Shown here: one piece after another, positions 5,937 through 26,281 of the stretch
Numbering within the stretch: position 1 is the first letter of the stretch
Layout: the number at the start of each line of letters is the position of its first letter
Virus record (IMG/VR): IMGVR_UViG_3300025828_000159
Location: 1 to 26,281 of that record
DNA: 26,281 bases
Reading direction: 5' to 3' (one strand)
Source of the DNA: a virus
Translations under genes and position numbers: made by a program
The notes under the pieces: model-generated
The model's database searches: none
Seen by the model: the letters and a program-made list of their open reading frames with translations, nothing else
What the model was told of the DNA's origin: nothing

Positions 5937-7307
5937 TTACATAAGATTTGAAACGGTAACAGTACGATAGTAGATATTCTTTTTCGCAAAAGAGATAGCA
6001 CCATCGGCAGCGGTTGTTGCAAAAGGATTAGCGACGATGCCGTAGCGAGTCTTAAATCCAATTTTTGGCTGGAAGGTATTCTCGCCAACTGCACGAACCA
6101 TCTGTAGTGGAACATATGGGCAGTAGAAGAGACCAGCATCAAATGCGCTTGAACCCTTGTAACCAATGGTGTAGTACTGATCACCAGAGGCGCTTGAGAA
6201 GTATGGGTCAACATAAACGCGGACCCGACCATGTAGCACACCAGCGAAAGTGTTACCTGTATCGTCTACGTTTAGGTTGGAACTGAGTGCTGGAGTGTAA
6301 TCAAGAACACCAGCCATCTGTAGGGCAGAAGCTACGTCTGAACCACAGATTAGAACGTTACCCTTACCACGCCGGGTTGACTTGGCGATTTGGTTAGCGT
6401 CGCGCTCGATCTGGTAGATTAGACCCTTGAAGCGTTCTACTGACCAGCGACCGTTTGCATCAACGTCTAGGTTGAAAGTACCAGAGGTTGTTACGTTATC
6501 CTGAGCACCTGCGGTAGCGGTATAGTTGATTGTACGAACTACTTCGCGGTTGATTTCAGCGAGGATTTCAGCAGATAGGATGTTGGATAGTTCTGTTTCT
6601 GCGTCTAGACCGTGAATAGCCTTTAGATCTTGGGCTAGTTCCATGGTGTACTCAGCTTTAAGGGCGCGAGATACAGCAGTTACAGAGACCTTCTCAACTG
6701 AGAAAGCCATTTGTTGGAATGCGTTCGTAGAACCATCGCCGAGAGCTTCTGCTTCAGCGGTGGTCATGCCAGTGCCGACGGTATACCCAGTACCTGATGC
6801 ACGATCGGTTGGATCGCTACCAGATTGAGCATTATTACCAGCGTCGTTAATAACACCGAGAGATGCAGTATTACCAGAAGCAGAGGCAGAAAATGTGGTT
6901 ACTGCTTCGTTATAGAGGGCTTCGTCGCCACCTTGAGTTGAGAAACGTGAACGCATCGCGAAGATTAGACCTGTTGGACCAGTCATTGGCTGGACACCGC
7001 AGATATCGTATGCGATCATATTTGGCATTGAGCGACGAACTAGTGAAATGAGGACAGGATCGAAAATATCGACTGAACCGTCACTAGCGGTAGAAGAAGA
7101 AGCGCCCATAGCATTAACTGGTGCTGCTTCGCCTAGTAGTGTTGGTGAATGATAACCGCCAGAACCAAAACCCTGCTCACGGGCAGAAATCTCTTGGTTT
7201 TCTAGTAGTTGAGCAACGACAGCACGCTTATGAGGATCCTTGATCTCACCGAGATCTGGATGTTCAAGAACTGGCTGCCACTTCTTGAGTAGTTCTTCAT
7301 TTAACAT
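5937..7307 (-). CDS. gp23: Major capsid protein precursor gp23
   Basis: HK97-fold major head protein, 456 aa. The N-terminal helix-rich propeptide (MLNEELLKKWQPVLEH, then DPHKRAVVAQLLENQE) matches the gp23 family, as do SMPNMIAYDICGVQPMTGPTGLIFAM (part) and the closing FATTAADGAISF. A maturation site fits the gp21 rule (I/L)xE: LGE60|AAPVN, so the mature protein would start at Ala61, close to the T4 position (Glu65). The gene is less AT-rich in appearance than its neighbours, with codon choice typical of highly expressed phage capsid genes. It has an AATAAATA late promoter upstream and a strong terminator downstream. No vertex gene gp24 follows, which is common in marine relatives. Confidence 0.97.
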   Translation of the reverse strand: MLNEELLKKWQPVLEHPDLGEIKDPHKRAVVAQLLENQEISAREQGFGSGGYHSPTLLGEAAPVNAMGASSSTASDGSVDIFDPVLISLVRRSMPNMIAYDICGVQPMTGPTGLIFAMRSRFSTQGGDEALYNEAVTTFSASASGNTASLGVINDAGNNAQSGSDPTDRASGTGYTVGTGMTTAEAEALGDGSTNAFQQMAFSVEKVSVTAVSRALKAEYTMELAQDLKAIHGLDAETELSNILSAEILAEINREVVRTINYTATAGAQDNVTTSGTFNLDVDANGRWSVERFKGLIYQIERDANQIAKSTRRGKGNVLICGSDVASALQMAGVLDYTPALSSNLNVDDTGNTFAGVLHGRVRVYVDPYFSSASGDQYYTIGYKGSSAFDAGLFYCPYVPLQMVRAVGENTFQPKIGFKTRYGIVANPFATTAADGAISFAKKNIYYRTVTVSNLM

Positions 7308-7355: not shown

Positions 7356-8423
7356 TTATTTCTTTACAGTTCTAGAAATAGCAGCGGCGTAGTGTGCCAT
7401 GCTTCCAGTCACCTTCTTACGAACCTCTTCTTCGAGTGGTTCTTCTTCGTCAATAATAGATTCAATCTTATCTTCATCAGCGAAGTAACTTTCCTTAATC
7501 ATGGAAACTTTACCACGATAGTCTTCTTCTGAAACAAACTCAACAGCAGAAGCTAAGTCAGTAAACTTCTCTTTATTTGCAACAGTTAGATCTTCGGAAA
7601 TTTCTGAAACGATAGAATCTTTAACAAGAACTTCAATTTTATCATTGAGTTCAACATTTTTTTCGATTTCCTTGTTAAGGCTTTCTTCTAGTTCATCTAC
7701 CTGATCGGATAGATCGCCTAGAATATCTACCTTATCTTCTGGAATATCAATATAAGATTCTTCGAAAAGTTTCTTTAGACCGCCAATAAATTCTTCAGCG
7801 ATCTCAGTACGAATACCGTTTTCCATAGCTAGACGATTCTCATCGGCCCACTGTTCGACTACGTAGTCAAGATAGGAATCCATCTTTTCTACCATGTCTT
7901 CGTGATTATTTTGAGATTCGATTAGATTATCGGCTTCAATCTTTTCTGATAGTTCGGAGAGCTTTTCATTAATTTTAGTGATTACAGCAGCCTCAAAGAT
8001 TGTGGTTGCTTTATTTTTAAACTCTTCTGAAAGATCTTCGTTGCCGAATAGAGCTTTAACATCATCTTCTAGATCGATGTCATCTCTTGTTACAGTGATT
8101 GGTTCTGAAGTTTTAATATCTTCTAAGATATCTTCTTCGTTTGTTTCAGTCTCTTCACCCATCATCTTTGAATATGCAGAATAAAGATCTTCTTTCTTCA
8201 TACCATGCATTTTTGTCATCATGGCATTAATCATGCCAACCTTTGTCTTGGGTGAATTTCCTTGAGCAACAGGCTTTTTCTCTCCGGCGTCCTTATCAGC
8301 AGGACGTGAGGAGTCCTTCGTTGGTGCAGGATCTGCAACCATTGAGGGATCGCCCATTGAAGCTTTAAATTCCTGAAGATCTTCAGAGTCGTCTTCAAGA
8401 ACTTCTAGATTCTCATCGGACAT
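7356..8423 (-). CDS. gp22: Prohead scaffold core protein gp22
   Basis: Main internal scaffold of the prohead, degraded by gp21 during maturation. It is 355 aa, very acidic and mostly helical. The first 70 residues are disordered (acidic, then PAPTKDSSRPADKDAGEKK), followed by a segment MINAMMTKMHGMKKEDLYSAY, then long coiled coils (residues about 140-290, for example LSDQVDELEESLNKEIEKN). The basic C-terminus HYAAAISRTVKK is the part that in T4 contacts the capsid shell. Several (I/L)xE triplets suitable for gp21 cleavage are present. Position between gp21 and gp23 confirms the call. Confidence 0.93.
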   Translation of the reverse strand: MSDENLEVLEDDSEDLQEFKASMGDPSMVADPAPTKDSSRPADKDAGEKKPVAQGNSPKTKVGMINAMMTKMHGMKKEDLYSAYSKMMGEETETNEEDILEDIKTSEPITVTRDDIDLEDDVKALFGNEDLSEEFKNKATTIFEAAVITKINEKLSELSEKIEADNLIESQNNHEDMVEKMDSYLDYVVEQWADENRLAMENGIRTEIAEEFIGGLKKLFEESYIDIPEDKVDILGDLSDQVDELEESLNKEIEKNVELNDKIEVLVKDSIVSEISEDLTVANKEKFTDLASAVEFVSEEDYRGKVSMIKESYFADEDKIESIIDEEEPLEEEVRKKVTGSMAHYAAAISRTVKK

Positions 8424-8473: not shown

Positions 8474-9118
8474 TTAAAGTTTCTTCAGGAAATCCTCGAA
8501 GATACGCAATTTTGTTTGTTCAAGTTCGGCTTTATTGGCTTTCTTGATATCATATTGAGAACGCTCCACAAATCTTTGTGTCCACTTCCCACCTTCCATA
8601 ATCCATTCAACCCCTTCCATAATACCTTGAACAAATGCATCTGGCGCGGAAGGATCTGCAACGATGTCGGCTGCGGTAGCAAGATAAAAATCTTTTTGTA
8701 CCTCATTGACACCATTTTTCTGTTTAAGAGTACCCATACCTCTTGATGAAACACCAATAGTGGCACCCTCTTTGATTAAGTTTTTTACGATATTACCGTA
8801 AGGTGAATCCATAATCTTCGCTTTACCCATGAAGTTATCTCCATCTTGGTAAAGTTCTTTAATCATATGTGATACTCTTTCAAGATTAATGGTTGGTCCA
8901 CTGGGATGACCTAGTTCACCAAATGCACGATTCTTCATTACATATTCTTTGTTATATCTATTTATTTCTCTTTCAAGAATATCTGTAGGATAGATACGAC
9001 CATTACGGTTCTGTTTGTTGGCCTGCATAAAGATGCCTTCAATATAAAAATCTTTCTCACCATTCTCATTGGCTTCGGTCACATAACCGATGTCAAGTAC
9101 TTCCGTGATGAGTTTCAT
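8474..9118 (-). CDS. gp21: Prohead maturation protease gp21
   Basis: Serine protease of the T4 prohead family (herpesvirus-assemblin-like fold) that cleaves gp23, gp22 and core proteins after (I/L)xE. It is 214 aa (T4 212). The pattern NRNGRIYPTDILEREINRY near residue 37 is characteristic. The likely catalytic His is in GELGHPSG (His71), and the Ser in IGVSSRGMG (Ser124 or Ser125). ADIVADPSAPDAFV (residues about 150-163) is the third conserved block. It follows the small structural gene 9120-9479 with one base between. Confident. Confidence 0.95.
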   Translation of the reverse strand: MKLITEVLDIGYVTEANENGEKDFYIEGIFMQANKQNRNGRIYPTDILEREINRYNKEYVMKNRAFGELGHPSGPTINLERVSHMIKELYQDGDNFMGKAKIMDSPYGNIVKNLIKEGATIGVSSRGMGTLKQKNGVNEVQKDFYLATAADIVADPSAPDAFVQGIMEGVEWIMEGGKWTQRFVERSQYDIKKANKAELEQTKLRIFEDFLKKL

Positions 9119-9119
9119 A

Positions 9120-9479
9120 TTATTCTCCTGACTTCTTATGCATTTTTAAGATAATAACGCCGTTGCCACCAGAAAGTGTAATATCTACGTTCGATGTTCT
9201 TTGTGCGTCATTAAGTTCTAATTGCATTCCACTTGCTTGATAATCATGATATCCACTACCAGCAAATACAGCGACAGTATTAGAACCTCTTTTTACGTTC
9301 CAATTATTTGTACCATCTACGCTCCACATCACTTCTGATATTACCATTTCACCAACAGTCTCACCAATAGCATTGGCTCCTTGTTTACCATTTGCTGTAT
9401 TAAGTTTCAAACCATCAGTAGCAGTAGTTCTAAAAACTACATATCCAGCAGGTTTTTTATGATTATTTGTTACTGGCAT
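9120..9479 (-). CDS. Small beta-rich structural-type protein next to the protease
   Basis: 119 residues from ATG 9479, which shares one base with the upstream stop (TGATG) and has AGAGGA 7 bases before it. The sequence is strand-rich with no membrane segment: VISEVMWSVDGTNNWNVKRG, TVAVFAGSGYHDYQASGM, then NVDITLSGGNGVIILKM. The W-x-v-x-R-G-x-N-T-V pattern followed by G-x-G resembles small virion-associated proteins in marine T4-like head clusters, as I recall them. Its location between two head-assembly genes supports a role in the head, but no activity can be assigned. A decoration or core component is a guess. Confidence 0.75.
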   Translation of the reverse strand: MPVTNNHKKPAGYVVFRTTATDGLKLNTANGKQGANAIGETVGEMVISEVMWSVDGTNNWNVKRGSNTVAVFAGSGYHDYQASGMQLELNDAQRTSNVDITLSGGNGVIILKMHKKSGE

Positions 9480-10504
9480 CACACTGTCCTCTTTGCAAAT
9501 GTAAGCATATTTTTATAGGATTTTTCATCTTTCATCATTTCACTTTCCATACGCTTACGATTTTCCGGATTTAATTCTTTGAGAACAGCATTGAATGCAA
9601 CGGCATCTTCTTTTGTTACCTTTACTGACTTGCCGTTCTCTAATTTAATTGTTCCTGCTTTTACTGCTTCTTCAATAAACTCAACTTCTTCTTTTGCTAA
9701 ACGCATTTGAAAAGCAACCTTTTTACCATCAGAAGTCATACCTTCAGTATCGGTTCCTTTGTATAATTTAAATCTTCTTTTTACTGTGACCTTTAAACCA
9801 TTTGAATCGGTAACTCTATCAAATTTACCACCAATAGGATATTTTGTTGTATCATAGAAACCAACTCCCTTTGGTAGAGTAACTACTTGTTCTGCTTCAT
9901 CAATAAACTCAACTTCTTCTGCCATTTTCCAATATTTACTAGCAATAGCATCTCTTTCTTTTTGGTCTTTATACTCTATGTGACCTTTCATATCATGTCG
10001 CTTATTGATGTCTTGAATTTTCTTGACTTCAGCAGGAGTACCAAAAGACTGGGCAAGTTTTAGAGCAACTAGACCATGTTCGTTACGATCTTCTAAATCA
10101 CGAAGTTGTTTCTTCGTAACTTTCTTGGCTTCATCAAGTTCAACTTCTTCTTTTACAGAACCTGCCTTGAAGTCACCCTGTCTCTTATCACCTTTACGAA
10201 GAGGTGTTTTTGTAATTTTCTCTCTAAACTTAGCAAATTTTACGTCACCAGAAGTACCTTGTTTTACTACTGGTTCACCAGGATGTTCAACACCTTTATG
10301 TTTGTTGTGTGATGTCTTAGCTACATGTTGATCTTCTGGAGCAGCTGGATGATTGCTTACTTCAACAGAGTGTAAATCAACAAACTCAATCTCACCATCA
10401 GATCTAGGCTGATATTCTAGTGCTTCTTCGTCGTCATCTGGATCGACAACATAATCGTCAGCGCCAGCTTCTTGGATCTTTCTGAGTTGTTTAAGCGTTT
10501 TCAT
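9479..10504 (-). CDS. Prohead core precursor with four maturation-protease sites
   Basis: 341 residues from ATG 10504 (MKTLKQLRKIQE), chosen because GAGGAAG lies 7-8 bases upstream; an earlier in-frame start at 10540 lacks one. The protein carries four exact (I/L)xE|A sites of the gp21 type: IQE12|A, LDE125|A, IDE203|A and IEE279|A. The last three sit in near-identical EEVE[L/F] contexts. Cleavage would give a 12-residue leader, an acidic 113-residue piece, two basic pieces of 78 and 76 residues (residues 126-203 and 204-279), and a 62-residue helical C-terminal piece (ending LTFAKRTV). Such basic products could stay inside the head as internal peptides like those of T4. It lies between gp67-like and the protease genes and overlaps the former by 14 bases. 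Processing is inferred. Confidence 0.8.
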   Translation of the reverse strand: MKTLKQLRKIQEAGADDYVVDPDDDEEALEYQPRSDGEIEFVDLHSVEVSNHPAAPEDQHVAKTSHNKHKGVEHPGEPVVKQGTSGDVKFAKFREKITKTPLRKGDKRQGDFKAGSVKEEVELDEAKKVTKKQLRDLEDRNEHGLVALKLAQSFGTPAEVKKIQDINKRHDMKGHIEYKDQKERDAIASKYWKMAEEVEFIDEAEQVVTLPKGVGFYDTTKYPIGGKFDRVTDSNGLKVTVKRRFKLYKGTDTEGMTSDGKKVAFQMRLAKEEVEFIEEAVKAGTIKLENGKSVKVTKEDAVAFNAVLKELNPENRKRMESEMMKDEKSYKNMLTFAKRTV

Positions 10505-10673
10505 AAGAATCTTCCTCGGAACTGTATAGAGTAGATGCAATACGCATTTTCTCTGAATCTATTTTTTCGTTTGTTTTGAATGCAAGAACATCATTAATAA
10601 TATCTCTAAACTTAGAAGTCTCGTTGTTTTCCAAATGCCGTAAAGCATCACTTAAACTGTCTTGTGCATCCAT
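10491..10673 (-). CDS. gp67: Prohead core protein, gp67-like
   Basis: 60 residues from ATG 10673, which has AAGGAG 7 bases upstream; a second ATG two codons earlier is too close to that site. The pattern ALRHLENNETSKFRDIINDVLAFKTNEKID (short segments), then KMRIASTLY and an acidic tail, parallels T4 gp67 (helix, small-residue helix, ID-x-x-K-x-x-IA, acidic end). gp67 is a minor scaffold protein that is cleaved during head maturation. The location between portal and protease genes agrees. The match is short, so the name is probable but not certain. Confidence 0.7.
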   Translation of the reverse strand: MDAQDSLSDALRHLENNETSKFRDIINDVLAFKTNEKIDSEKMRIASTLYSSEEDSYENA

Positions 10674-10691
10674 AGTCATTCTCCTTTCATT

Positions 10692-10711: not shown

Positions 10712-12469
10712 TTAAGTAAAATAAGGTACTTTATAACTAGTTCCACCAATATTAAACGTTAAATAACCGTTTGGATTGGCTACTATACTATCATCTGGAG
10801 TTAGTGTTCCTAATGATGTTGTTACATCGCCTGGTGTTGCTGTAATTGTAACATTGGCTGAAGAAAATTTACTAGCAATACTACTTGTTACAGTAGTAGC
10901 AAAGTTAGGATCATCTCCTAAAGCTGTTGCTAACTCATTTAGTGTATCTAGAGTGCTTGGTGCAGAGTCTACTAAATTTGTAATTTCTGTTCTAACAAAT
11001 GCTGTAGTAGCGATTTGAGTTGTATTGGTCGCCGCCGCTGCTGTAGGAGCTGCTGGGGTTCCTGTAAATGTTGGTGATGTTATATTTGCTTTAGTAGCAA
11101 TATAAGAGTTGGTATTTGCTAAAGCGGAATTGAAGGTAGATGTACTTACTTTAGTCGCAATATAACTATTGGTATTAGCTAAATGTAATAAAGTATTAGC
11201 AGTATGCGCTGCTTCTCTTGTTTCTACAGCGGCAATGTAACTATTGGTATTAGCTAATGCTGTTCTTTCAGTAGCAGAAACGGTAGCAATATAAGAGTTG
11301 GTATTGGCAAGAGTTGTTTGGAATACAGTATTTGTTACATATGTGCCACCTACCGTTGATTCTGTTTGTACTGCTGTTACACTACCACCCTCTACAGTAG
11401 CGTACCAACCACTAGAGTTAGCGAAAAGAGAAGAGTTATTACCAACATATATTGTGCCGCCAGAAATATAAAGATCTCTAAATTTCTTTGAAGAAGTACC
11501 TAAGTCATAAGTTTCATCTTGATCTGGTATAATATGTTGAGTTGTAATTGTAGTAGTAAACGTATTAGGACTAGGAACAGTATTTGCTTCCCACTTACCT
11601 TTAGTGGCATTATATACTAATGCTTGACCGTCTGATGGACTTTTAACAGTATTATAGTCCACATCATCTAGACGATGTAACCAAACTTCACCAGATCCAG
11701 AAGATCCACCACTTCTACTAGATAATGCTAATCTTGTTACTTGAGCACTTATAGAATCTCTAAAGTTTTTTAAGCCTTCTTCTAGTTCTTGTTTAAGAGG
11801 TTTTAGATCAACAAGTCTACCATCTGCCCCCGGCGGTCCGATTGGACCTGGGATCCCTTGTTCGCCTCTATCACCTTTATCGCCCCTGGGTCCAACAGGT
11901 CCGATATCGCCTTTTTCACCTGGGACTCCTTTTTCTCCTTTTTCTCCTTTTTCGCCCTGTGGTCCTTGAATCCCTTGAATACCGACTGGTCCTCTAGCGC
12001 CCACATCGCCTTTATCGCCTTTATCACCTTTATCTCCTTTCGGTCCTTGTGGACCCGCAATACCTTGTTCACCTTGAGGTCCTACGGGACCGACTGGACC
12101 TTGTTCACCAAGATCCCCTTTTGGTCCTCTACCGCCTCTTGGTCCAACAACTTCACCAACTTCTAGTTGTTCGCCATCAGAGAAATTTAAGATTAAACGA
12201 TTTTCGAATATTCCTGCTTTGAGTATAGCATTGCCAGCGTCACCTTTATCTCCTTTGTCTCCTTTCTCACCTTTAGGACCAACGGCTTCTACAATGACAG
12301 ACTCAGCAGCATCACCACGATCACCCTTTGGACCTTGCGGTCCAGGTGGTCCTTCGATAGTTTTGATCTCTTCTATCTCTTCACGTAGTTCTTTTACGTT
12401 TTTAGAGATTTCTTGTTTAGCGAGTTTTAGAGATGCTGCTAATAACTTGGCGTTTTCTATGTCTTTCAT
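10712..12469 (-). CDS. Collagen-like fibre protein
   Basis: 585-residue mosaic fibre. Residues 1-39 form a helix or coiled coil that probably trimerises. Gly-X-Y runs occupy 40-54, 64-78 and 109-216, the last being 36 uninterrupted triplets; a short strand-rich insert (81-108) lies between. Next comes a helix, then a phage-fibre block with DDVDYNTVKSPSDGQALVYN and ETYDLGTSSKKFRDLYISGG. Four LANTNSYIA repeats, SPTFTGTPAAPTAAAATNT and a C-terminal NIGGTSYKVPYF follow, all typical of tail or head fibres. The ATG shares one base with the gp20 stop (TGATG) and has GAGGAA upstream, so synthesis is coupled to the portal gene. T4 has no such gene here. It is likely a head- or neck-attached whisker, but a tail fibre is possible. 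Confidence 0.88.
   Translation of the reverse strand: MKDIENAKLLAASLKLAKQEISKNVKELREEIEEIKTIEGPPGPQGPKGDRGDAAESVIVEAVGPKGEKGDKGDKGDAGNAILKAGIFENRLILNFSDGEQLEVGEVVGPRGGRGPKGDLGEQGPVGPVGPQGEQGIAGPQGPKGDKGDKGDKGDVGARGPVGIQGIQGPQGEKGEKGEKGVPGEKGDIGPVGPRGDKGDRGEQGIPGPIGPPGADGRLVDLKPLKQELEEGLKNFRDSISAQVTRLALSSRSGGSSGSGEVWLHRLDDVDYNTVKSPSDGQALVYNATKGKWEANTVPSPNTFTTTITTQHIIPDQDETYDLGTSSKKFRDLYISGGTIYVGNNSSLFANSSGWYATVEGGSVTAVQTESTVGGTYVTNTVFQTTLANTNSYIATVSATERTALANTNSYIAAVETREAAHTANTLLHLANTNSYIATKVSTSTFNSALANTNSYIATKANITSPTFTGTPAAPTAAAATNTTQIATTAFVRTEITNLVDSAPSTLDTLNELATALGDDPNFATTVTSSIASKFSSANVTITATPGDVTTSLGTLTPDDSIVANPNGYLTFNIGGTSYKVPYFT
11094..11309 (-). repeat. Four LANTNSYIA-coding repeats
   Basis: Four copies of a roughly 28-base unit coding LANTNSYIA[T/A] lie at about 11094-11121, 11153-11181, 11229-11256 and 11282-11309, with 32-48 base spacers. 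They probably form a repeated rung in the fibre shaft. The DNA similarity could also promote recombination that changes fibre length. Confidence 0.8.
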
Positions 12470-14118
12470 CAGACTTCCTCATCATCATTCATCTCTATAT
12501 TTTCTAATAAGGATGTCATTTTACTAACGAGTTTTTTATCTTCTTCTGACATTTCTATTGGTTGAAATTCTTCTATTACTGTATTCGCGTTTATAGATTC
12601 CATTGGAGTATCATCTTGATTGTTATCTTCATCATCATTCATAGGACTATCAGGATCATCAGATTCTTCTTTGATCTCTTTATCCATCTCTTCAATATCC
12701 TCTTCAGACATTTGAAGAATGTTCTTACGAACCCAAGCCATTGAGTAGTATTTACCAACAAAACCATCAATCTCATTGGCAAGAGATAGTCTTTCTCTTA
12801 ATACTTCTGCTTCTTTTAATTCAGCAAAATAGTTATCATGAGCAAACTCGTAGTAGATATCTTCACGAATTTTTTTCCAATCTTTTCTTGATATTACACC
12901 TTTTAGAACTAACTGTATTTCTAAAAGATTATCAAATAGATGTGAAAATCTATTTCTAAGTCTTTTTATAAACTTGGAAAATTTTAACTCATCGCGAGTA
13001 ATTTCTGTAGATCTACCAAGATTAAACTGATTCTCTGCTTCCATACGTGTGACAGGAACATTCAGAGACTTGTAGAGTTTACGACGGAAATAATCTACAT
13101 CGTCCATCTCTCCAAGATTTTGACCGCCTGGAAGTGTAGTAATCTCGGTGCCTCTACCACCTTCTCTACGAGGAAGCCAGAAATCTTCTAACATTGTCAT
13201 AAACTTACGATCATCTCTAACTTCACCAGTCGAAGCATCATAGACAAGACGATTCTTATGTTTTGTCATCATGTCTTGTAGATATTGTTCAGCCTTCATC
13301 TTTGGAAGATTGCCTACATCGATATAAAATATTCTACGTTCTGGTGCACGAGATAAACGATAGATTACAGTTGCGTCTTCTAACATTCTAAGTTGATTCA
13401 ATGGTTTGATTGCTTTGTTAAGATATCCTAGTACAATCTTATTTGATGGATCGTTTATACCACTTGTAACATGACAGATAGAATCTTTAGCGATCTTTAC
13501 CGCGTTTTGAGCGCCTGAAGAAGTAATCCCTTTTGGATGATAGATGTAGTACTCGTTGAACCCTTTCTCAACTGTTACCCTTGTACGAGGATGAGTTTCA
13601 GTTATTTTTTCACGTATCTTTTTAATTTTTCTAGGGTCTATTTTACGAAGTTCTTGTATACCATTCCTAGGTTTTGATTCGTTGACGAGTATGTGATAAT
13701 ATAAACGTCCATCAACATACCATTGTTTGAATATGTCATATCCTTGATTATTGAAGTCGAGAAGTTTTAATACGTTATAAAATTCTTCTCTAACTTTGTT
13801 TTTAAAAGAAACAGAGTATTCCAAATCATCAAGAACAATGTCTATTGGGTTTTCATTGTCCAATACGATTGATTCGTTTACGATATCTTCGATGGCGCTA
13901 TCACATTCTGGTTGCATAGACATTTCGCGATAACGTGTTACTAGTTCTCCTTCAGACTTAGCAGAACCTTCTAGATCTACATAAGTACCATAAACACCAC
14001 CAGCAGCGACTTCTACCGCGCCGTCTTCAAAATTAGGTGCAACAAAGGATTTTACATTTTTTTCTTGTTGTTCTTGATTAGATTTCTCTATCTTAAAACC
14101 AAATAGCTCTACTGCCAT
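12469..14118 (-). CDS. gp20: Portal vertex protein gp20
   Basis: Dodecameric portal through which DNA is packaged and to which the neck attaches; 549 aa (T4 524). Recognisable blocks are SMQPECDSAIEDIVNESIV near residue 67, KIDPRKIKKIREKI near 182, DPSNKIVLGYLNKAIKP near 222, RAPERRIFYIDVGNLPKMKAEQYL near 258 and DVDYFRRKLYKSLNVP (LGEMDDVDYF context) near 340. The last 80 residues are strongly acidic (ESDDPDSPMNDDEDNNQDD). It starts a new unit with a late promoter at 14152-14159 after the gp19 terminator. The stop codon overlaps the collagen-like gene. Confidence 0.96.
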   Translation of the reverse strand: MAVELFGFKIEKSNQEQQEKNVKSFVAPNFEDGAVEVAAGGVYGTYVDLEGSAKSEGELVTRYREMSMQPECDSAIEDIVNESIVLDNENPIDIVLDDLEYSVSFKNKVREEFYNVLKLLDFNNQGYDIFKQWYVDGRLYYHILVNESKPRNGIQELRKIDPRKIKKIREKITETHPRTRVTVEKGFNEYYIYHPKGITSSGAQNAVKIAKDSICHVTSGINDPSNKIVLGYLNKAIKPLNQLRMLEDATVIYRLSRAPERRIFYIDVGNLPKMKAEQYLQDMMTKHKNRLVYDASTGEVRDDRKFMTMLEDFWLPRREGGRGTEITTLPGGQNLGEMDDVDYFRRKLYKSLNVPVTRMEAENQFNLGRSTEITRDELKFSKFIKRLRNRFSHLFDNLLEIQLVLKGVISRKDWKKIREDIYYEFAHDNYFAELKEAEVLRERLSLANEIDGFVGKYYSMAWVRKNILQMSEEDIEEMDKEIKEESDDPDSPMNDDEDNNQDDTPMESINANTVIEEFQPIEMSEEDKKLVSKMTSLLENIEMNDDEEV

Positions 14119-22337: not shown

Positions 22338-23039
22338 TTATTGCCATTTAGGTCCACGTAACCAAATAACAAGACTTCTACGAATACCATTTGTTACTGG
22401 TTTTACTCTATGATATGTAAAAGAAGGAAAGAATAATGCTGAACCTTTTTCTTTAAAGTGTGGTAGTTTAATAGGTTCCATTACATTATAACCATCAAGA
22501 TTTAGTTGTTCTTCACGATTTTCTTCTTTTTTTTCTTTTAATGATAACAACTCAAATTCTCCACCATCATATTCACTAGGGTCTGTCAATTGAATACTAC
22601 AACTGATTTTACGAACGGTATTTTTTAGAATATGATCTTCTGGATAATCGGGTTGTAATGTTCTATCATTTACAATGGTATCTGTATGCCAGTGATAATG
22701 ATTTTGGTCACCATAATATATTGTATATTGAAATGGCTCTATAGCAGTAATGTTGTAGTTCCATCCACTTTGTTGATTGACATCAGCGATTGTTGGACGA
22801 ATCATAGAATATAGTTCTTCATTATCATGCCAAGATACTTTGTTCTTACGAATAGTATGATTGGCGTTTTCTGGATTATCAATACCATATGTTAACGCTT
22901 CTTCTTCTTCACTTTTTTCACAAATCTCACGAATACGCATAATCTGTTCAGGCCAGAATAAAGTTTCATAGTACCAATACCAATTATTTTCAAATGTAGT
23001 TGTTAGAATTTGACCTTCATGACCAATATTTATTGACAC
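22338..23039 (-). CDS. PKHD-type Fe(II)/2-oxoglutarate oxygenase (AT-rich copy)
   Basis: 233-residue hydroxylase of the prolyl-4-hydroxylase-alpha-like PKHD group. Iron ligands are His118-x-Asp120 (HYHWHTD) and His210 (TYHRVKPVTNG); Arg220 is placed to bind 2-oxoglutarate. Conserved flanks are LFWPEQIMRIREIC, RKNKVSWH, EPFQYTIYY, SIQLTDPSEYDGGEF and VIWLRGP. An inserted charged loop lies at 125-190. The substrate is unknown; marine T4-like phages often carry such enzymes. It lies one base after another oxygenase and is clearly related to the GC-rich gene at 23851-24456, which has the same blocks in the same order. Confidence 0.88.
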   Translation of the reverse strand: MSINIGHEGQILTTTFENNWYWYYETLFWPEQIMRIREICEKSEEEEALTYGIDNPENANHTIRKNKVSWHDNEELYSMIRPTIADVNQQSGWNYNITAIEPFQYTIYYGDQNHYHWHTDTIVNDRTLQPDYPEDHILKNTVRKISCSIQLTDPSEYDGGEFELLSLKEKKEENREEQLNLDGYNVMEPIKLPHFKEKGSALFFPSFTYHRVKPVTNGIRRSLVIWLRGPKWQ

Positions 23040-23040
23040 A

Positions 23041-23748
23041 TTATTCTCCAGACTCTTCAGTTCGTTTTACGATAGAGAAACGAATCTTTCTATCATTATC
23101 CGTCGTTTCCATTAATTCTTTATAATATTCACTTTTACCAATAGGTTCAATGAATAACTGTTCTCTGCGATCATATGCAAACTGTTGAAAAGGACCAAAA
23201 CAATCTACATAATGTAGAAATAATTGACATTGCCAATCTGTTGTTTTAGGTGGATTAAACTTTTCTCGCCAATGCGGTACGTCACATCCACGATAAATCA
23301 TTGCTTCTTTAGGTTGGACAGAAACAGGCATTCTTACTGTTAAGTCATCTGGATCTGCATACCAGATAGGCCAGTCAAACTTCCCAGATTGTCCTAGATT
23401 GATTGTAACAGAGATTTCACAAGAAGGTCTATCAGAATGATAGCGTAATTCTTCACCAGGACCATATACACGCATGTAGGTATATGTGGGTAAGAGTTTT
23501 AAACCTGTAAGTTCTTCCATTTTAGGAAGACAATCAACCATTACATATTCACACATAGGTTGTCCATACCAAGCCTTAGAGTTGATGGGACATTGTGAGT
23601 CGTTTAGTTTATTTTCAGTATCTTCTTTTGCTAATTTAACATATTCATCTGAGATAATTTTAGCGACATCGGCGTCTACAAAGTCATCTACTGCTAGGTA
23701 TTTCTTCTTTTGAAAATAATATACACCAGCACTATTACGAAGTTTCAT
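23041..23748 (-). CDS. Second Fe(II)/2-oxoglutarate oxygenase, different subfamily
   Basis: 235 residues. The core has His104-x-Asp106 (ELRYHSDRPSCEISVTINLG) and His159 (IYRGCDVPHWRE), an order and spacing typical of the cupin-like dioxygenase fold. The C-terminal part DWQCQLFLHYVDCFGP continues the barrel. The region before the iron site contains AWYGQPMCEYVMVDCLPKMEEL. It is unlike the neighbouring PKHD enzyme in sequence, so the pair is not a recent duplication. ATG 23748 has GGAG 7 bases before it, and an extended -10 promoter lies upstream. Substrate unknown; a protein or nucleotide modification is possible. Confidence 0.85.
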   Translation of the reverse strand: MKLRNSAGVYYFQKKKYLAVDDFVDADVAKIISDEYVKLAKEDTENKLNDSQCPINSKAWYGQPMCEYVMVDCLPKMEELTGLKLLPTYTYMRVYGPGEELRYHSDRPSCEISVTINLGQSGKFDWPIWYADPDDLTVRMPVSVQPKEAMIYRGCDVPHWREKFNPPKTTDWQCQLFLHYVDCFGPFQQFAYDRREQLFIEPIGKSEYYKELMETTDNDRKIRFSIVKRTEESGE

Positions 23749-23767
23749 TCATTTTCTCCATTTAAAA

Positions 23768-23796
23768 ATTATACCACATCACATTATATATAATAA
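23768..23796 (-). promoter_or_regulatory. Possible extended -10 promoter for the oxygenase pair
   Basis: Minus strand TGGTATAAT (TATAAT at 23768-23773) fits an extended -10; the -35 position TTATTA matches only three of six consensus bases. It is 19 bases before the ATG at 23748, near the right limit of the AT-rich part of the window. Confidence 0.4.
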
Positions 23797-23850
23797 TATT
23801 TTAACCAAGGCTACGGATTCCCGAGTGAAGCGTGGGGAACAATACCACAA

Positions 23851-24456
23851 TTATCGCCAAGGTGGACCCCGGAACCAGCAGACCAGGGATTCCCGTTTTC
23901 CGCGGGTCAAGGGCGTGACTCGGTGCATCGCGTTCGACGGGAAACAGACAATCGACCCCGCCTCTTTCGGGAAGGATATTGGCACGGGGCGAAGCTCATT
24001 GTCACGCATCGTGAGCAGTTCGAGTTCGCAGCCGTCGTAATCTTCCGGATCGGACAATTGCACCACACAGGTTACCTTGCGAATGTTCCCTGTGGGGGCC
24101 GCGGTAGATCCGCCTGAATCGTCCGAGTGCCACGTATAGTGATCTTGTGTCTCCCGGTAGATCGTGTATTGCAGGGGCTCGATCTCGCGGATATCGACGT
24201 CCCAACCGGCCGCGCGAAACACGTGATTTTGAATCGGGCGGACAAACCGAAAATCTTCCTCCCGAGACAACCACCGCACCTTGTTCTTGCGAACATCCGG
24301 GCCGTCGCCACCCGAGGTAGATGCTTCTTCCTCCGAGACGTCTCTCGCCAATCGGCGAAGTTCCATGACCTGTTCTGGCCAAAACCACCGGCGGTGATAC
24401 TGAAACCAGACCGGGCTATTGATCGCCCCGAGTCCTTGCCCATCGAGCCCAATCAT
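23851..24456 (-). CDS. PKHD-type Fe(II)/2-oxoglutarate oxygenase (GC-rich copy)
   Basis: 201-residue homologue of the enzyme at 22338-23039. Ligands are His110-x-Asp112 (HYTWHSD) and His178 (NAMHRVTPLTRG), with Arg188 for 2-oxoglutarate. The shared blocks are WFWPEQVMELRRLA, VRKNKVRWL, EPLQYTIYR, VVQLSDPEDYDGCELELL and VCWFRGPPW. It lacks the roughly 30-residue charged loop of the AT-rich copy. Codon use is strongly GC-biased, so the two diverged in different genomes. The start ATG overlaps the sulfotransferase stop by 4 bases. Substrate unknown. Confidence 0.88.
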   Translation of the reverse strand: MIGLDGQGLGAINSPVWFQYHRRWFWPEQVMELRRLARDVSEEEASTSGGDGPDVRKNKVRWLSREEDFRFVRPIQNHVFRAAGWDVDIREIEPLQYTIYRETQDHYTWHSDDSGGSTAAPTGNIRKVTCVVQLSDPEDYDGCELELLTMRDNELRPVPISFPKEAGSIVCFPSNAMHRVTPLTRGKRESLVCWFRGPPWR

Positions 24457-25121
24457 ATCATGGGTCGCACTTCGTGAAGGTTCCGGTGATTTAGCACGTA
24501 GCTTGCACCGCTGGTGTCTATGCTCGGTGCGGACAGATCATATCGATGCGGCGCGAGGTCTAAGAACGTCTCTACGTCTCGCAGGGTATTCTCCGGCTCG
24601 CGGATCCAATCCTCATATTCGAGCACGAGCCAACTTTTTGAGCGGATCGCCAGCGATAGCTCCGTCGTTTGAGCAAAAACCCGTGCCTTCGAGATGAACT
24701 GATCCACCTCTCGTGCATCCATAGTTGATGGCAACGCGTCTCGGAACGATTGCTCTATTTCCGCGAACGGCCGCCGGACATAGATTAGCGGTAAGTCTTC
24801 CCCGAACACGTCGAGGAACATATTTCGATTGGCCAGCGTGCTCCAGTGCCCGCTTTTGTCCAGCGCAAAAGTCTTAGCGCTACAGGATCGAAAGAACGCG
24901 TCCGCCGTCCCTCGGAAAAACTGAGACATGCCCTGTCTGACTTCAACGGAGGATAGCTCTATCGAAAAATTTCTGTCCGTGTAGAGTTCGTATTGCCTCC
25001 ACAACAACTCCACCAAGGGCGACTGAAACGGCACGTACAAATCCGGGTGCTGATTGAGCATGGCGGAGAATATCGTGGTTCCACTACGGGGCGTACCGGT
25101 GATCGCGCCTTTGAGTATCAT
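24453..25121 (-). CDS. Sulfotransferase-family protein
   Basis: 222 residues. It begins MILKGAITGTPRSGTTIFSAML: the GTPRSGTT loop (residues 9-16) is the 5'-phosphosulfate-binding site of PAPS-dependent sulfotransferases. LIYVRRPFAEIEQSFRDAL (about residues 111-129) fits the 3'-phosphate-binding motif with its Arg and Ser. LVLEYEDWIREPENTLRDVETFLDL near the C-terminus matches the usual closing helix. It would transfer sulfate from PAPS to a sugar, lipid or tyrosine. In a phage it could decorate fibre proteins or cell-surface glycans; this is inference from context beside an adhesin. It overlaps the neighbouring genes by 4 bases at both ends. Confidence 0.85.
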   Translation of the reverse strand: MILKGAITGTPRSGTTIFSAMLNQHPDLYVPFQSPLVELLWRQYELYTDRNFSIELSSVEVRQGMSQFFRGTADAFFRSCSAKTFALDKSGHWSTLANRNMFLDVFGEDLPLIYVRRPFAEIEQSFRDALPSTMDAREVDQFISKARVFAQTTELSLAIRSKSWLVLEYEDWIREPENTLRDVETFLDLAPHRYDLSAPSIDTSGASYVLNHRNLHEVRPMI

Positions 25122-25528
25122 TCCCAGACTTTCAACTGTTCGTTCCAGGTTTTACAAGTGAAGGTTCCCTGTTCCGGATTACCTTCATCCGGCATTCCTT
25201 TCGGCGGCACCCACCGCGCGATTTTTTTATCCAACACCCACGAAGGGTACGGCTTGTCGCTGTCGAGAAACAGATCTTCCGCGGCGTCGTACTTCCCGCC
25301 CACCCGAGCGAAGTTGCCTCGCTTTGGAGATTTCCCTCGACGATGAACGCCGTTCTTCATGTTAAACGACGTTTGTTTGAAGGTGTTTTTGCTGCCCGTG
25401 ACGCGCTGGCAAAAATCGATGCCAATATCTTCGTTCTCCTCGCCAAAAACGTCGAGCGTGTCTTCGTCCGCAACGACGATGACATTGACCACATTCCCGT
25501 CAGAATCTATTTCCGCAAAGTGAGCCAT
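25118..25528 (-). CDS. Small phage fibre-associated protein (MAHFAEID family)
   Basis: 136 residues of a type I recognise beside tail-fibre genes in many marine phages. The N-terminus MAHFAEIDSDGNVVNVIVVAD is the hallmark, followed by IGIDFCQRVTGSKNTFKQTSFN, ARVGGKYDAAEDLFL and DKPYPSWVLDKKIARWVPP. The latter echoes the common PYPSWVLD-x-x-x-W-x-PP motif. The end TWNEQLKVWE is also typical. No enzyme motif is seen. Function is unknown; a structural or adhesin accessory role is likely from context. It is preceded by a short duplicate of its own start at 25532-25558. Confidence 0.8.
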   Translation of the reverse strand: MAHFAEIDSDGNVVNVIVVADEDTLDVFGEENEDIGIDFCQRVTGSKNTFKQTSFNMKNGVHRRGKSPKRGNFARVGGKYDAAEDLFLDSDKPYPSWVLDKKIARWVPPKGMPDEGNPEQGTFTCKTWNEQLKVWE

Positions 25529-25531
25529 CTT

Positions 25532-25558
25532 TTAATCCAATTCCGCTAAGTGAGCCAT
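25532..25558 (-). other. Duplicated gene-start remnant (8-codon ORF)
   Basis: Minus strand ATG GCT CAC TTA GCG GAA TTG GAT TAA encodes MAHLAELD and stops. It is nearly identical to the start of the following gene (MAHFAEID), whose ATG is only 3 bases after this stop. Its ATG shares one base with the stop of the glycine-rich gene (TGATG). It looks like the leftover of a second MAHF-type gene deleted by recombination, or a leader peptide coupling the two genes. Confidence 0.75.
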
Positions 25559-26281
25559 CAGGGCACCGTGAACGTCCCGGTTGAGTTGAATTCGTGTATG
25601 TAGTGCGTTGGAGTTTGGGTTTTGGTCCCACCCGATATGTCCGCCGGAGCATTTCCATAGGTGGGGTCGTTTTTGGGATATCGAACAACCACTTTACCCG
25701 AGCCCCCCGCGCCGCCAGGAGTGGAGGGAGAGGTCGCGCCGCCGCCGCCGCCGCCGGTATTCGTCGCCCCCACTTCCGGCCCGGGCGTCGGGTTCCCGCC
25801 GTCTCCGCCGCCACCCGTGCCGCCGACGCCATAGTTAGGATCCCCGCCTGCGCCGCCGCCCCCGCCGCCTGCGTAGTTGACCGGCGAGCCCGTGTAATCG
25901 TTGGGCGAACCCGCGCCACCAGGACCGCCGCTGTTTGCGGGAGAAGGACCAAATGTTCCCGCGGAGCCCGCGGCCGCTTTTCCGCCGCCCCCGCCGCCGC
26001 CGCCAATGGCCCCGCCGCCGGCCCAACCCGCGCCCGGCCCCCCAGGGTTCCCTTGCCCCGCGACCCCGGTGCCACCGCCAGTGGGAGCGTACATGGGACC
26101 GCCGCCCCCGGATCCACCCGGCACGCCTGTTGACCGAGCGCCTGGATTTCCGCTTCCTCCGCCCCCACCAGCAGACGTGACCGGCGCGGGCCCGTGCCCC
26201 CACACACTATTTCCTCCAGAACCGCCGATAACATCCGGGGACGAAGCCGGGGGGCCAGACGCCCTTCCCGCAGCCCCGCCC
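25558..26281 (-). CDS. Glycine-rich tail-fibre adhesin, C-terminal part (partial)
   Basis: Open frame from the right edge to TGA at 25558, about 240 residues seen; the start is outside the window (GTG 26205 is internal). The sequence is dominated by poly-Gly runs (up to 8) mixed with Pro, Ala, Ser and Asn, as in phage adhesins that form polyglycine-II lattices at the fibre tip. The C-terminal end has the recurrent motifs GGSGKVVVRYP and HYIHEFNSTGTFTVP. Base composition is extremely GC-rich. Host-receptor binding is inferred from resemblance to glycine-rich fibre tips. The small MAHF-type gene downstream is a common companion. Confidence 0.82.
   Translation of the reverse strand, partial: GGAAGRASGPPASSPDVIGGSGGNSVWGHGPAPVTSAGGGGGSGNPGARSTGVPGGSGGGGPMYAPTGGGTGVAGQGNPGGPGAGWAGGGAIGGGGGGGGKAAAGSAGTFGPSPANSGGPGGAGSPNDYTGSPVNYAGGGGGGAGGDPNYGVGGTGGGGDGGNPTPGPEVGATNTGGGGGGATSPSTPGGAGGSGKVVVRYPKNDPTYGNAPADISGGTKTQTPTHYIHEFNSTGTFTVP

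Follow-up and report, generated by a model that had tools for sequence, protein, structure and literature searches.

We describe an open reading frame (ORF) of 341 amino acids (aa) that probably encodes a modular internal-capsid polyprotein, cut and exchanged at short junctions, with its cargo ejected from the phage head. It lies at positions 9479..10504 (ATG at 10504, stop codon ending at 9479) of IMG/VR record IMGVR_UViG_3300025828_000159, of which we analysed positions 1 to 26,281 (26,281 nucleotides, nt; hereafter the window). This 26.3-kb record holds the structural genes of a T4-like phage of aquatic bacteria; the module, like the oxygenase-like ORFs mentioned below, is on the minus strand. 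The prohead protease, the targeting leader and the basic internal proteins are known from T4, where gp21 cleaves core and internal proteins after (I/L)xE; what appears to be new is a chain of exchangeable cassettes with a predicted cutting site at each joint. Two points go beyond, and are stronger than, an earlier note on this DNA: whole cassettes are exchanged at the sites, and a leader of the T4 capsid-targeting type ends at the first of them.

Four prohead protease-type sites in one ORF

The ORF contains (I/L)xE|A sites (the bar marks the bond) after residues 12 (IQE|A, 10469..10477), 125 (LDE|A), 203 (IDE|A) and 279 (IEE|A). All but the first are embedded in longer motifs, in turn KEEVELDE (junction KEEVELDE|A, 10130..10153), AEEVEFIDE (junction EEVEFIDE|A, 9896..9919) and KEEVEFIEE (junction KEEVEFIEE|A, 9668..9694). 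Cutting at all four would expose the N-termini AGADD, AKKVT, AEQVV and AVKAG and yield pieces of 12, 113, 78, 76 and 62 aa. In 20,000 composition-preserving shuffles the mean number of sites was 0.24, four or more had P about 5e-5, and three EEVE-type sites together never arose. Most other window proteins have no such site and none has more than two, and the sites are thus concentrated in this ORF. Since it is matched over its full length at 100% in four IMG/VR contigs, the ORF is unlikely to be an assembly artefact.

Behind the leader, the N-terminal region (residues 13-125, 10130..10468) is acidic (isoelectric point, pI, 4.9), predicted to be disordered and conserved in close relatives. It is followed by cassette 1 (residues 126-203, 9896..10129), which is present also in proteins of other architecture, by cassette 2 (residues 204-279, 9668..9895) and by a basic C-terminal domain (residues 280-341, 9482..9667) that is kept in the family members reaching the C-terminus. 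As cut, the 78- and 76-aa pieces would have pI 8.2 and 8.9 and a charge of +1 to +2, only mildly basic because each retains an acidic tail; the 62-aa piece, at pI 9.7, is the most basic large piece. The sites, the new N-termini and the repeated EEVE[L/F] contexts were all read correctly in the earlier note. Its description of the two central pieces as basic holds in this weaker form, the C-terminal piece being more basic, and its division into five pieces stands, with the first piece now seen as a 12-aa leader and not a cargo peptide.

A T4-type leader and a co-occurring protease

The leader, MKTLKQLRKIQE|A (10469..10504), is like the T4 capsid-targeting sequence MKTYQEFIAE|A of IPII and IPIII (sequence comparison, PMC9026906); that of IPI is MKTFKEF...ITE|A. 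In T4, ten N-terminal residues of IPIII are enough for targeting to the capsid, and Asp in place of the P1 Glu prevents processing of the targeting sequence (PMC9026906); by resemblance the leader of the ORF may have a targeting role. T4 gp23, gp68 and the internal proteins share the (I/L)xE grammar. The major capsid protein gp23 of the window (5937..7307) carries LLGE|A near its N-terminus, after residue 60 (bond at 7127/7128); the motif lies at or near this residue in close relatives too and corresponds to LTE|A of T4 gp23.

The presumed processing enzyme is a gp21-type prohead protease at 8474..9118 (Peptidase_S77, PF03420, E-value 1.3e-40). An S77 protease is present in 34 of 35 family records, which were selected by the C-terminal domain, and in only 11 of 50 motif-bearing records, where the low count probably reflects fragments or chains encoded far from the head operon. 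Like gp21 substrates, then, the ORF has (I/L)xE|(A/G/S) sites in a genome that encodes an S77 protease; like the T4 internal proteins, it has a leader ending at a gp21-type site and small basic pieces, the acidic 113-aa N-terminal piece excepted.

Whole cassettes are exchanged between relatives

Relatives in IMG/VR share the leader with the N-terminal region and the 62-aa C-terminal domain. Unrelated cassettes, each roughly 40-110 aa long, lie between these conserved ends in numbers from zero to about eleven and are joined, with some exceptions, at KEEVE(L/F)(I)(D/E)E|A. The earlier note had proposed an alignment of homologues as a check, expecting the sites to be kept while the segments between them vary, and its expectation is strikingly borne out. 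Five members have no cassette (L016, L017, L018, L041 and L042), and others have one (L008/L009, L039, L044 and L011). In L010 the N-terminal region and first junction lead directly into cassette 2, inside which the contig ends. Cassettes 1 and 2 occur together in the window, L001 and L005; L014 has two different cassettes and L258 a tandem duplicate. The longest chain, in L271 (1661-4207), has 848 aa and about eleven cassettes. Several of these are diverged copies of a cassette with the sequence ELSKKTLGSYxKKAS, which is found too in phages Cr30 and P-TIM68.

The clearest case is the pair L017 and L011, whose genes are identical over the first 381 nt and differ by 3 mismatches in the last 213 nt. 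L011 exceeds L017 by one 264-nt cassette unit (88 codons) that includes one extra 24-nt repeat encoding KEEVELDE. This is a precise gain or loss of a cassette at the junction. Identical repeats of 14-24 nt occur at junctions within single genes. In L055 (4704-6740) an exact repeat of at least 60 nt covers a junction together with the beginning of the cassette after it, which suggests a recent partial duplication of a cassette. Cassettes also recur beside different neighbours and in chains of other composition, including one in the cultured Methylophilales phage Melnitz.

The junction is constrained where the protease would read it

We aligned 31 non-redundant junctions preceding the C-terminal domain by the KxG of that domain. 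Glu stands at P1 (the residue before the bond) in 28 of the 31, Ile, Leu, Val or Met at P3 in 29, and Ala at P1' (the residue after the bond) in 24. The pattern [ILVM]xE|[AS] fits 24/31 junctions, against a background of 0.9% per position in the same proteins. P9-P12 are unconserved: the upstream sequence is unrelated and the site is retained. A separate logo was made with the motif search pattern, which fixes Glu at P1, and this position of the logo was not used as evidence. We observe, then, that the junction is constrained at the positions that a protease would read.

Cassettes are small, basic and partly foldable

Internal cassettes (n=120) have a median length of 82 aa and a core pI of 9.8, with 94% above pI 9; the median pI of the window's genes is 4.95. 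AlphaFold predicts cassette 1, modelled alone, as a four-helix bundle (pLDDT, the predicted local distance difference test, 85). In the full model the C-terminal domain is folded, the N-terminal region disordered and cassette 2 poorly modelled, as low-confidence beta structure. Cassette 1 and the C-terminal domain fold separately, and the sites fall in low-confidence stretches or at domain edges.

The ORF gave no match in Pfam, PHROGs, NCBIfam, PADLOC or PDB-sequence searches, and neither these nor structure searches assigned a recognised function to a cassette of the window. Compared with the PDB, cassette 1 alone returned only common helical-bundle arrangements (Z at most 5.7), and compared with BFVD it returned weak matches to small phage proteins (template-modelling score about 0.7, E-value 0.03). 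Foldseek found nothing for the full model in the PDB at E below 0.001; VIA-align rows for that model (Z at most 4.7) involved only the low-confidence cassette 2 and were set aside. A PADLOC row for Csa3 in relative L053 (E-value 0.009) was treated as chance. Among GenBank phages there was no tblastn match to the full ORF or to cassette 1, and the genome-contig scan returned none for the C-terminal domain.

Similar chains at a second locus, and virion proteomics

A near relative with a 127-kb genome (G002) has a block outside the head operon in which proteins begin with the leaders MIRFKQFLDLQE|A, MINFKQYLTE|S and MVKFKNHLISE|S. Also encoded there are a cytidylyltransferase fusion and a further chain, which contains two junction motifs. 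The fusion is a 1162-aa frame (L194:12957-16441; G002 72956-76441, minus strand) combining a cytidylyltransferase, a P-loop/zeta-toxin-like kinase domain and DUF5824, and it is related to cyanophage virion proteins. Comparable blocks are found in Melnitz, in Prochlorococcus phage P-TIM68 and in Caulobacter phage Cr30. The Cr30 cassette chain (L281:7762-9810, AGS80949) has a different junction flank (SEEMINE|A, PINE|S) around the same (I/L)xE core.

Purified virions of Synechococcus phage S-SCSM1 have been analysed by mass spectrometry, and ORFs 89-93 are annotated as virion proteins (PMC9602691). ORF91 begins with MKSFLQFLKE|A, and ORF92 contains a KEEVELDE junction. Virions of S-SM1 contain a cytidylyltransferase as well (PMC3037559). 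By analogy, the S-SCSM1 virions support the packaging of proteins that bear such leaders and junctions; the S-SCSM1 authors themselves note that such proteins in virions could be carry-over instead (PMC9602691).

A model of packaging, cutting and exchange, and its alternatives

We propose that the leader MKTLKQLRKIQE would act as a T4-type capsid-targeting sequence, drawing the whole chain into the prohead core. During prohead maturation the neighbouring gp21-type serine protease would cleave just after the leader, as well as at every KEEVE(L/F)(I)(D/E)E|A junction, and one precursor would yield the acidic N-terminal piece, at least one small basic cassette and the basic C-terminal domain. The mature cassettes would remain with the DNA and be ejected into the host like T4 IPI, IPII and IPIII. 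Phages would gain, lose and exchange cassettes, of which precise gain or loss is seen in the L017/L011 pair, presumably through recombination in the short junction-encoding repeats, so that an inserted cassette would arrive already flanked by cutting sites. The internal-peptide polyprotein suggested in the earlier note is thus favoured in part: the grammar of the sites, the place of the gene, the co-occurring protease and a leader like those of T4 agree with one another.

Several points weigh against this proposal. Cleavage of the chain, its retention in the capsid and its injection are all steps that we infer from sequence. The virion mass spectrometry, helpful as an analogy, concerns a different locus in another phage and not the window ORF. 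One cassette, present in L007, L013 and L014, is missing a site on the left, and Met or Glu stands at P1' in a few junctions. Homology ends inside junction motifs 15% of the time, which is modestly positive against 5.4% for random positions and also means that many boundaries in the wider set do not coincide with a junction motif. Finally, the mature T4 head retains 0 copies of gp68, whose gene occupies the corresponding position (PMC9026906).

This last point makes a core scaffold that is cut up and cleared the strongest rival, since the ORF lies between portal and gp21 genes at the position of T4 67/68. Such a protein at the gene 68 position would be cleaved at many places for clearance, as is T4 gp22, a protein with numerous (I/L)xE sites that undergoes degradation, and its cassettes would tune core size or assembly with no delivery; phage phiM12 does have a cassette-free positional counterpart. 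We nevertheless consider the scaffold unlikely. The sites lie between predicted folded domains and are not scattered, the pieces of 60-110 aa are basic and predicted to be folded, and a scaffold would not be expected to tolerate wholesale swaps of unrelated cassettes easily. Similar chains also occur outside the head operon, in blocks with a virion-associated counterpart in S-SCSM1.

It is a good deal less probable that the chain is an uncut multidomain protein in which EEVELDE is a repeated acidic linker or docking peptide, binding for example the capsid or core, and no protease site. What speaks for it is that P7-P4 (EEVE) are conserved as well, beyond the needs of an (I/L)xE|A site. As that site alone leaves this conservation unexplained, EEVE may be a docking feature or a recombination repeat. 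The T4 rule is nonetheless matched at P3, P1 and P1', with P2 tolerating Asp, Glu and Gly; Cr30 retains (I/L)xE|(A/S) within its other flank; and the protease is encoded in nearly every family record. Least credible of all is a relic of repeat-driven recombination, in which short DNA repeats such as those described above shuffle domains with no cleavage and the conservation is of DNA homology, given that junction codons differ among lineages (GTT/GTC/GTA, GAA/GAG, CTT/CTG; EEVEFI versus EEVEL) with the peptide kept, and that the site is retained in cassette-free members too.

If the ORF is indeed an internal-capsid polyprotein, its cassettes may act against host defences. T4 IPI, Ip2 and Ip3 block type IV restriction enzymes (PMC9026906; PMC12373910), which makes a counter-defence role plausible by analogy. 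A broader version of the proposal, which we hold tentatively and as somewhat less than an even prospect, is a system widespread in aquatic T4-like phages. Each phage would have at least one such gene, for a chain that may string together as many as about eleven small basic effectors and in which the codons flanking each effector serve both as protease site and as recombination repeat; this injected anti-host arsenal would be reloaded by cassette swaps and automatically packaged and released.

T4-like phages are among the commonest marine viruses, and for many of the proteins in their virions no function is known. A readable grammar, consisting of a leader and cassettes split at (I/L)xE|A, predicts which genes of this kind are packaged and where their products are cut, and with it many 'hypothetical proteins' become candidates for injection. 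If true, the proposal would bring the polyprotein strategy to tailed DNA phages, with the head protease freeing the cargo and the cutting site doubling as the point of exchange.

Gene neighbourhood

The module comprises genes for terminase, sheath, tube, portal, a collagen-like fibre, a 62-aa ORF, the polyprotein ORF, a 120-aa ORF, gp21, gp22 and gp23, the terminase, sheath and tube identities coming from reading and synteny. Portal gp20 is at 12469..14118, the 62-aa ORF occupies the gp67 position (10491..10679), and a gp22-type scaffold with (I/L)xE sites lies at 7356..8423. The 120-aa ORF (9120..9482), which has no (I/L)xE|(A/G/S) site, separates the polyprotein ORF from gp21. The earlier note's term 'core precursor' is apt as to gene position, between gp67 and gp21; we rejected orthology with T4 gp68, to which hhalign detects no homology (probability 0.1%, E-value 0.42).

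The nearest cultured relatives by gp21 are the pelagimyophages Mosig and HTVC008M (59%), which have only small ORFs at the polyprotein position. Next to the gp21 gene there is a pair of small ORFs in each of Mosig, HTVC008M and S-SCSM1, positional counterparts of the 120-aa ORF among them; both of those in S-SCSM1 (ORF38 and ORF39) are annotated as virion proteins.

The head operon includes the gene for the collagen-like (GXY) fibre protein (10712-12469), which separates the portal gene from the core genes. The same record encodes 2OG-Fe(II) oxygenase-like ORFs (22338-24456; PF13640 in 2/3), and a link to the collagen-like protein by prolyl-hydroxylation is only a thought. Over 24001-26281 the GC content climbs to 55-59%, from about 35%, and this stretch contains a sulfotransferase ORF (24453-25121); either acquisition of the segment or a chimeric end of the assembly could account for it.

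Relation to known systems

A literature search combining polyprotein and prohead protease found no such system, most subscription papers lying outside the search. Polyvalent proteins (Iyer et al. 2017, PMC5512222) likewise place several domains in one delivered polypeptide, and their authors compare them with polyproteins. They have known enzymatic and anti-defence domains that embedded peptidases release, whereas the ORF has small domains with no recognised function, none of them enzymatic or anti-defence by Pfam, PADLOC or NCBIfam, and is predicted to be cut in trans by the head protease.

The cyanophage virion NMNAT/cytidylyltransferase block (S-SCSM1 ORF89-93, S-SM1 T4-GC190) is alike in the leader of ORF91, the junction of ORF92 and detection in virions. 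It lies at a different locus, the likeness seen to the window ORF lies in leader and junction, and the available parts of the two reports do not describe its products as polyproteins (PMC9602691, PMC3037559). The head ejection (E) proteins of SPN3US are also cargo inside the capsid, and a T4-like prohead protease, gp245, processes them (PMC7411985), but they have N-terminal propeptides that are removed once, and no chains of swappable cassettes.

Within T4 itself, gp67, gp68 and gp22 are alike in their position between portal and major capsid protein and in their (I/L)xE sites; gp67 and gp22 leave fragments in the head, but these are small peptides and not folded, exchangeable cassettes. The closest likeness in kind is to IPI, IPII, IPIII and Alt, which have in common with the proposed polyprotein the short targeting leader ending in (I/L)xE|A, processing by gp21, and small basic cargo that varies among relatives. 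The T4 internal proteins have one gene per cargo and a single cut, whereas here several cargos share one chain, with a predicted cut at each junction.
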